Assembly: GCA_017432385.1 (NCBI GenBank)
Contig: JAFRJH010000211.1
Location: 1 to 32,670 of the forward strand
Direction: 5' to 3'
Origin: Kiritimatiellia bacterium
GTDB taxonomy: Bacteria > Verrucomicrobiota > Kiritimatiellia > RFP12 > UBA1067
DNA length: 32,670 nucleotides
Numbering within the stretch: the first letter of the stretch is position 1; every line of letters starts with the position of its first letter. Shown one piece after another: positions 3,509 to 5,475 of this stretch. Made by a program: the position numbers and the translations under genes. The notes beneath the pieces are model-generated. The model did no database searches, was not told the DNA's origin, and saw only the letters and a list, made by a program, of their open reading frames with translations.

Positions 3509-4144
3509 ATGCGCGTCGGCATATACGGCGGAAGCTTCAATCCCGTCCACCTCGGGCATGTCGGCATCGCGAGGCGGGCGATTGGGGATCTCGGACTCGA
3601 CAGGCTCGTCGTCGTGCCGGCGAACGCGAGTCCGTTCAAGGCCGGCGAGGCCGCCTCGCCGCTCTGGAACCGACTTGAACTTGTCCGCGCCGCGTTCGCG
3701 GGACTGGACAGGGTCGTGGTCGACGACCGCGAGATGCGCCGCGGCGGCGTCTCGTACACGATTGACACGGTGAGGGAGCTTGTCTCCGAGAATCCCCCCG
3801 GGACGGAGTTTTTCTTCATCACCGGCGAGGACTGCGTCGCGGACCTTCCCAAGTGGAGGAGCTACGACGAACTCTCCAGGCTCGTGACGTTCAAGGCGTA
3901 TCCGCGCACCAGGGAGTCCTCTACGGAGATACGGCGTCTCTTCGGGGATAACCGCGTCACGCTCAATCCCGACGCGCGGATCGTCGCGACGGTGAGGGCC
4001 GGCGTCGTCAGGAAGAACGGGTACTGCCCCTGCCGGATTCCGAAGCTTCCGGAGTTCTTCTGCCCCTGCGACGAGTTCAAGGCGCAGCTCGCGGACCCGG
4101 AATTCCACGGGCTATGCCATTGCCGCCTCTACCTCAAGCCATGA
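3509..4144 (+). CDS. nadD: NadD-like nucleotidyltransferase with ferredoxin-thioredoxin-reductase-like tail
   Basis: The N-terminal part (residues 1-132) is a nicotinate-mononucleotide adenylyltransferase fold: GGSFNPVHLGH at 7-17, the PANASPFK substrate loop at 37-44 and FFFITGEDCVADLPKW at 101-116. This family makes deamido-NAD in NAD synthesis. The usual 40 or so residues between the FKAYPR strand and the SSTEIR motif are absent: residues 128-142 read FKAYPRTRESSTEIR. From residue 169 the protein becomes NGYCPCR...FFCPCDEF...GLCHCRLYLK, a three-pair CxC pattern matching the catalytic chain of ferredoxin-thioredoxin reductase, which binds a 4Fe-4S cluster. The fusion is read directly; whether the shortened NadD part is active is unknown. 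Its stop overlaps the next gene's ATG (ATGA at 4141-4144). Confidence 0.82.
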   Translation: MRVGIYGGSFNPVHLGHVGIARRAIGDLGLDRLVVVPANASPFKAGEAASPLWNRLELVRAAFAGLDRVVVDDREMRRGGVSYTIDTVRELVSENPPGTEFFFITGEDCVADLPKWRSYDELSRLVTFKAYPRTRESSTEIRRLFGDNRVTLNPDARIVATVRAGVVRKNGYCPCRIPKLPEFFCPCDEFKAQLADPEFHGLCHCRLYLKP

Positions 4145-5475
4145 AGGGGAACGCGTCAGGCGGCGGATGCGGCGGAGTGCCCGATGAGGTGAAGTCCACC
4201 AGCGTCGTCACGATCGGCGGCATGGCCGTCAACATCGTTCTCGCGGCGCTGAAGACCGCAGTCGGCCTGATCGCGGGGTCCCAGGCGCTTGTCGCGGACG
4301 CCGTCCACTCTCTCTCCGACCTCGTGACCGACCTCGCCGTGCTTGTCGGCGTCAGGTACTGGACTGCGCCGGCCGACGCCGGGCATCCATACGGACACGG
4401 CAAGATACAGGCGCTGGTGACGCTCTCGATCGGGCTTGCGCTCGCTGGAGTGTCGTTCGGGATCGCGCGCTCCTCGTCGCTGGACTTCCTCGCGGCGATC
4501 CGTGGCGAGGCGCTGCCCGTCCCGAGGTCCTTCGCATTCTGGATCGCGGTGGCGTCCGTTGTCTCGAAAGAGGCCGTCTACCGGTGGACCCGCGCCGTCG
4601 CGCTGCGTCTCCGCTCCCCCGCGCTGGAGGCGAACGCCTGGCATCACCGCAGCGACGCCATAAGCTCGATTCCCGTCGCGATCGCGCTTGCGCTGTCGTA
4701 CTTCGCGCCGTCGCTCGCGTGGGCCGACCCGGCGGGCGCGCTCGTCGTCGCCGTCTTCATCTTCAACACCGCGTGGGGAATCGTGAAGCCCGCCCTCCAG
4801 GAGCTCACCGACGCCGAGATGTCCGGCAAGTCGGCCGAGGTGGCGAAGGTCGCGCTTGGAGTGGCCGGCGTGTCGAGCTGCCACAACGTCCGCACCCGGC
4901 GCTACGGCGGTGCGTTCCAGTCGGATCTCCACGTGCGGGTCTCCCGCGCGCTCACGGTCGGCGAGGGGCATGCGCTTGGGCACGAGGTGCGCGACGCCGT
5001 GCGCGCGGCCGGAATAGGCGTCACCGACGCGGTGGTGCACGTCGAGCCGCAGGACGTCCGCGTCGTCCTTTCCCTCGGTTCCAACGTCGAGCCGCGCAGG
5101 GAATACCTCGCAAAGGCCCTGGACGCCGTCTCTCGCTTCCCGTCCACGCACCTCGTCGCGTCCAGCGGGATCGAGGAGACGGAGCCGGTCGACGTACCCG
5201 AGGAGTTCCGCGGACTAAAGTTCCTGAACCAGATCGTCATTGTCGAGACGGCGCTGGATCCGCACGACTTCTCCGCGCGGATGCACCGCGTGGAGGACGA
5301 TCTGGGCCGCGTGCGCACCGTGAAGAACGGCCCCCGGACGATCGACATCGACATGATCGACTACGGTGGGCTCGTCCTCGACACGCCGGACCTCGTCCTT
5401 CCGCATCCGCGCGCCGGGGAACGCGACTTCGTCATGCGCCCGTGGAAGGAGCTCGAATCGGCGTCGGGGCGGTGA
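4141..5475 (+). CDS. Fusion: cation diffusion facilitator transporter + HPPK (FolK)
   Basis: One uninterrupted frame joins two unrelated families. Residues about 20-300 are a CDF-type divalent metal/proton antiporter of the inner membrane. They contain ADAVHSLSDL (52-61), GHPYGHGK (81-88) and WHHRSD (167-172), which supply the metal-binding His/Asp residues, plus a cytoplasmic C-terminal domain. Residues about 307-444 are 6-hydroxymethyl-7,8-dihydropterin pyrophosphokinase of folate synthesis, with SLGSN (311-315), the signature GPRTIDIDMI (397-406) and LPHPRAGERDFV (420-431). The kinase would sit on the cytoplasmic side. The start at 4141 is chosen for its ATGA overlap with the upstream gene; an in-frame ATG at 4114 would add nine residues. 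The junction at VHVEPQDVRVVLSLGSN shows no linker. Confidence 0.88.
   Translation: MKGNASGGGCGGVPDEVKSTSVVTIGGMAVNIVLAALKTAVGLIAGSQALVADAVHSLSDLVTDLAVLVGVRYWTAPADAGHPYGHGKIQALVTLSIGLALAGVSFGIARSSSLDFLAAIRGEALPVPRSFAFWIAVASVVSKEAVYRWTRAVALRLRSPALEANAWHHRSDAISSIPVAIALALSYFAPSLAWADPAGALVVAVFIFNTAWGIVKPALQELTDAEMSGKSAEVAKVALGVAGVSSCHNVRTRRYGGAFQSDLHVRVSRALTVGEGHALGHEVRDAVRAAGIGVTDAVVHVEPQDVRVVLSLGSNVEPRREYLAKALDAVSRFPSTHLVASSGIEETEPVDVPEEFRGLKFLNQIVIVETALDPHDFSARMHRVEDDLGRVRTVKNGPRTIDIDMIDYGGLVLDTPDLVLPHPRAGERDFVMRPWKELESASGR

Follow-up and report, generated by a model that had tools for sequence, protein, structure and literature searches.

What does a cysteine-rich tail resembling a disulfide reductase do at the end of a core NAD-biosynthesis enzyme, and are the two truly one protein? 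The question is raised by an open reading frame at 3509-4144 (+) in a 32,670-nucleotide stretch of Kiritimatiellia DNA (the window).

A NadD domain and a short FTR domain in one chain

The reading frame is genuine: it runs from ATG to TGA and encodes 211 amino acids. The original prediction described it as NadD fused to a domain like the catalytic chain of ferredoxin-thioredoxin reductase (FTR), and family profiles bear out both parts. PF01467 (CTP_transf_like) matches residues 1-143 (3e-17), NCBIfam NadD models match residues 1-138 (down to 5e-34), and PF02943 (FeThRed_B) matches residues 150-210 (E=0.003). The features, with the supporting evidence in brackets, are as follows.

3509..3943 (+): NadD core, residues 1-145 (PF01467, NCBIfam NadD, Foldseek, invariant motif columns)
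Within the NadD core (+): HxGH motif (GGSFNPVHLGH, residues 7-17), W116 and R133 (motif alignment)
3917..3934 (+): SSTEIR nucleotide-binding motif, residues 137-142 (21 residues after W116)
3956..4018 (+): junction and first FTR helix, residues 150-170 (alignment, AlphaFold2 model)
3965..4141 (+): short FTR catalytic domain, residues 153-211, ~59 residues (PF02943, profile link to 7pwe and 4tpu, invariant cysteines, omega)
4025..4033 (+): C173/C175 (CPC), predicted cluster ligand and predicted active-site thiol, respectively (alignment position)
4061..4069 (+): C185/C187 (CPC; CMC or CIC in standalone relatives), both predicted cluster ligands (alignment position)
4115..4123 (+): C203/C205 (CHC), predicted cluster ligand and predicted active-site thiol, respectively (alignment position)
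4141..4144 (+): ATGA overlap of the nadD-FTR stop with the start of a downstream cation efflux-HPPK gene (sequence)

The roles of the cysteines are assigned by analogy, and the ATGA overlap suggests co-translation with the downstream gene.

On its own the window protein scores 18 bits against PF02943, below the curated 22 bits. The whole-genome search gave 21.9 bits, or 23.1 when in-frame neighbours were included, which was counted as over the cut-off. A standalone homologue of the tail from Clostridia reaches 25.9 bits, above the cut-off, and we ascribe the weak score of the tail to its distance from the Pfam seed. With a profile built from 14 relatives of the tail (A1), the solved structure of FTR subunit B, 7pwe, is reached at 8e-4 and 4tpu, the rubredoxin-fused enzyme, at 3.4e-3. 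Tails of the genus were missed by PF02943 alone, and the census described below was therefore run with this profile. A single-sequence search of the PDB with the tail returned viral NS5A and gave only chance matches. The genome carrying the window (G000; 2.74 Mb, 83% complete) contains one FTR-like domain, the fused tail.

The tail shares with the FTR catalytic (beta) chain (PF02943, 7pwe) the order CPC...CPC...CHC, the helix preceding the first pair and the final LY. The arrangement that had been proposed thus holds for the order of the pairs but not for their spacing: CPC-X9-CPC-X15-CHC is a variant, compared with CPC-X14-CPC-X12-CYC in 7pwe and 4tpu and with the spacing X16/X8 of plant and cyanobacterial chains. 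Unlike the FTR catalytic chain, the domain is short (~59-65 residues) and joined to NadD. To our knowledge, the variable (alpha) FTR subunit is not to be expected outside oxygenic phototrophs. Another parallel is the ferredoxin:disulfide reductase (FDR; 4tpu), an FTR catalytic fold of anaerobes that is likewise fused to another domain; its partner, however, is rubredoxin, a redox domain, whereas here the partner is a biosynthetic nucleotidyltransferase.

Conservation of the fusion

The window belongs to a genus (g1) of uncultured Kiritimatiellae of the rumen and gut, with older labels 'Lentisphaerae' and 'Verrucomicrobia'. We looked for the same fusion in related genomes and found it in 37 of the 61 genomes of this genus. 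An assembly join at the junction, like a frameshift, is ruled out by this recurrence. We found no case in the genus in which the two parts are separate neighbouring genes; in sister genera NadD and FTR are encoded by separate, non-adjacent genes. Both contingencies under which the fusion was to be given up were thus set aside by the comparison.

In the fusions NadD and FTR share one open frame. Separate translation of the tail was considered and rejected: residues 127-161 offer no start codon, and the only nearby start, a GTG at residue 162, lies inside the FTR helix, which makes it unlikely. The six cysteines are identical in presence, order and spacing in all 37 distinct fused proteins, and the NadD motif columns are invariant in these 37 and in 43 unfused NadDs. 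In close pairs of fused genes omega is ~0.02-0.1 in both halves (~0.02-0.08 for the FTR domain), so both halves are in use and under purifying selection.

Across ~37 species of the genus, all FTRs found are joined to NadD; the one exception is an additional partial copy in G232. This copy (L076, C5:12073-12261) is a 139-aa ORF with a partial second NadD C-terminus and an FTR tail that keeps all six cysteines; it lies ~8.5 kb from the full fusion. Four unfused NadDs (G189, G247, G289 and G290), whose matches had run past the stop, were read in three frames for decayed FTR remnants, and nothing FTR-like was found behind them. By its sequence the protein is a new domain architecture made from two known families and widespread in one genus, and our literature search returned no paper naming both NadD and FTR.

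NadD shortening and helix loss

The NadD part shares HxGH, W116, R133 and SSTxIR with known NadD (PRK00071/TIGR00482), and its structure matches. It differs in that the strand and loop before SSTxIR and the last helix are gone and the FTR domain has been added at the C-terminus. HxGH and SSTxIR are thus present in all fused proteins, while the window protein departs from the full-length NadD fold, which has both a strand before SSTxIR and a C-terminal helix. Its scores lie below all NCBIfam equivalog cut-offs except that of TIGR00482, which is barely reached (112.7 vs 112.45). The best Foldseek matches are all NadD structures, including those of B. subtilis, Enterococcus and Mycobacterium; the best 50 are all NadD or NadD-like, with no match to the tail among them.

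The distance from the tryptophan to SST measures the shortening. It is 21 residues in the window protein and in genera g1, g14, g19, g23, g104 and g107, with one or two exceptions among the proteins measured, and 42 residues in the genus g16; other families of the order have 49-54. In B. subtilis NadD it is 39. The stretch before SSTEIR is therefore shorter by 18-33 residues: the shortening noted in the original prediction is real, but smaller than the roughly 40 residues given there. The shortened NadD stands alone and tail-free in g14, g19, g23, g104 and g107, and the shortened-NadD clade is supported at 99/98 on the NadD tree. Since genera with a separate FTR, or with none, share the shortened NadD, the shortening is older than the fusion.

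The fusions are of two kinds. The long form (227-233 aa) retains the last NadD helix (VPxAVxxFI), and the short form (mostly 210-219 aa), to which the window protein belongs, is without it; the short fusions make up one clade on the NadD tree (99/92). Confident AlphaFold2 models of the short and long forms (pLDDT 96.6 and 96.3; pTM 0.91 and 0.92) place at the junction one helix, at residues 156-168, in the short form, as against helices at 159-166 and 175-187 in the long form. The high pTM of these models suggests a fixed arrangement of both domains.

A search for a second complete nadD in G000 (83% complete) found none: of its two remaining CTP_transf_like genes, one reads as coaD and one as a glycerol-3-phosphate-cytidylyltransferase-like gene. 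The fused protein is the only NadD alongside NadE in this 83% complete genome, and the presence of NAD synthetase gives it a pathway to serve. NadD-type domains are likewise combined with another enzyme in PRK07152, a 361-aa NadD-type model, and in NadR; in the window protein the match to the NCBIfam multidomain NAD enzyme is confined to residues 1-138. The partners in other multidomain NAD enzymes are an HD hydrolase, a kinase and a repressor, and we know of none that is a redox domain.

Distribution of FTR and TrxB across the family

Known thioredoxin reductases fall into NADPH flavoprotein, F420, ferredoxin-flavin and ferredoxin Fe-S classes (PMC7278568). We compared the occurrence of the short FTR with that of the NADPH-dependent flavoprotein TrxB, called by TIGR01292 at E <= 1e-30, in a census in which all genomes are draft, incomplete MAGs. 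Within the family (f1), 46 genomes have only FTR, 56 only TrxB, 2 both and 11 neither. In the same order the counts are 35, 17, 2 and 7 in g1, 7, 8, 0 and 1 in g14, and 4, 2, 0 and 0 in g23. In g14 and g23 the exclusion involves standalone FTRs with no link to NadD. When only genomes at least 90% complete are considered, 11 of 12 with FTR are without TrxB and 17 of 19 without FTR have TrxB (Fisher 1e-5, a value that ignores kinship).

On the NadD tree the FTR state changes at least 7 times, and the switch between FTR and TrxB recurs about five times. The supported branches provide 5 independent contrasts, of which on average 4.4 run opposite to TrxB and 0 the same way; a kinship-aware sign test on the five gives p 0.06-0.375 and is unable to reach 0.05.

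Exceptions occur. G024 and G254 have both systems, and G216 (100% complete) and G247 have neither TrxB nor a short FTR; in two small genomes, G207 and G240 (1.3 Mb, 82-88% complete), no NadD match was found. Outside the family, the FTR-bearing G039, G048 and G056 also encode a TrxB-like protein that is divergent and scores under the curated cut-off. These proteins keep CxxC and, judged by eye, seem to be without the HRR motif typical of the NADPH site, and for this reason they may not be NADPH enzymes. Such TrxB-like proteins of other families of the order (L213-L216), likewise scoring under that cut-off, keep CxxC and apparently miss the HRRxxxRA NADPH motif; they are possibly ferredoxin-linked flavin reductases.

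G000 yielded no TrxB. The best match (1e-19) is a 536-aa glutamate-synthase/NfnB-like protein that adjoins an NfnA-like ORF. The genome does have a WCGPC thioredoxin, which aligns with the thioredoxin adjoining TrxB in the TrxB-bearing G014. Because the presence of the tail tracks the absence of TrxB, a general thioredoxin-reductase role is indicated. At the genomic level the distribution strongly hints at a replacement of TrxB by the tail, and the simplest reading of it is that the FTR domain serves as the thioredoxin reductase of these cells.

Matches inspected outside Kiritimatiellae come from Clostridia and other Bacillota, with one labelled Coriobacteriaceae. There the short FTR is a standalone protein of ~65 aa, and 10 of the 44 loci have a WCGPC thioredoxin gene next to it on the same strand. 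Within g1 the FTR domain shows no linkage to a thioredoxin gene. Gut Clostridia are the probable donors of the FTR gene.

Function of the fused protein

Taken together, the comparisons make it probable that the protein combines the cell's sole, active NadD with a ferredoxin-dependent [4Fe-4S] thioredoxin reductase that stands in for TrxB. One polypeptide would comprise a compact, active NaMN adenylyltransferase and a C-terminal [4Fe-4S] FTR catalytic domain; the latter would take electrons from ferredoxin and pass them to thioredoxin, having replaced the NADPH-dependent flavoprotein. The FTR gene, putatively obtained from gut Clostridia, would have been fused to NadD in g1, giving rise to the long form and, by later loss of the helix, to the short form. 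If so, a core NAD-biosynthesis enzyme and a disulfide reductase are joined in one chain, the missing step is filled in genomes seemingly without thioredoxin reductase, and cellular thiol reduction has switched repeatedly from NADPH to ferredoxin. The ~65-aa FTR is frequent among gut anaerobes, and in g1 it mostly escapes the Pfam threshold; the present findings give evidence, open to test, that it acts in place of TrxB.

Why the two should be joined is a separate matter. Loss of a stop may simply have joined neighbouring genes, with no functional tie between the halves, the product being kept because both are needed. We give this account a little less than an even chance, and it is compatible with the preferred reading since it concerns only the reason for joining. 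Such genomes fuse genes readily, as the cation efflux-HPPK, NadD-HAD (G257, G297) and FTR-Sua5 (G243) proteins illustrate, and in several lineages nested within the long-form clade NadD is unfused and TrxB is present. Against it stands the invariable union with NadD of the FTRs of the genus (the partial copy in G232 aside), which suggests more than drift. Stable co-expression or co-folding is a possible benefit.

The original prediction proposed that a redox-sensing tail couples NAD synthesis to redox state. In such a scheme the Fe-S tail would sense redox state or ferredoxin level and tune NaMN adenylylation through a disulfide or a conformational change. Conservation of the fusion across the genus, the fixed domain contact suggested by the pTM values, and the loss, in the window's clade, of the NadD C-terminal helix at the junction are all in its favour. 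We nevertheless consider it unlikely: the NadD part of the fused proteins has no conserved cysteine (32 of 37 have Ser in place of the window protein's C109, and 18 of 37 have a Cys at position 126), which speaks against a thiol switch inside NadD. Shortened NadDs also exist without the tail, the same tail family stands alone beside thioredoxin in Clostridia, its presence goes with the loss of TrxB, and the standalone FTRs of g14 and g23 show the same exclusion. Allosteric coupling through the domain contact may still occur but is unsupported. A related proposal, to which we likewise assign a low probability, is that a ferredoxin-driven reductase was built into NadD so that the ferredoxin or thioredoxin state alters NAD synthesis, thiol reduction having moved from NADPH to ferredoxin; the fusion would then tie the supply of NAD(P) to the control of thiol redox state. 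Least probable is a tail that acts as a structural zinc or Fe-S knob stabilising the shortened NadD, with no reductase activity. A strand is indeed missing from NadD, and from the short form a helix as well, and the core left exposed could be covered by the tail. The five genera with a solitary shortened NadD argue otherwise, as do the invariance of all six cysteines (the four ligands and also the two expected active-site thiols), the existence of standalone FTR forms, and the exclusion of TrxB.

Other fusions in the window and in relatives

The overlapping downstream gene in the window, 4141-5475 (+), is a single ORF in which HPPK (FolK) is joined to a cation-efflux (CDF/ZT_dimer) transporter. 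No match spanning both parts was found among 57 relatives; seen in one genome only, it is either a very recent fusion or an assembly or sequence error. In G243 (g23; L084:2-748) a standalone-type FTR is joined to the N-terminus of Sua5/YrdC (PF01300, 1e-38), which gives the same short FTR a second partner, distinct from NadD. In two further g23 genomes, G297 (L060) and G257 (L069), the shortened NadD carries a C-terminal HAD-family hydrolase; the L069 protein is 358 aa long and matches PF00702 at 1e-10.
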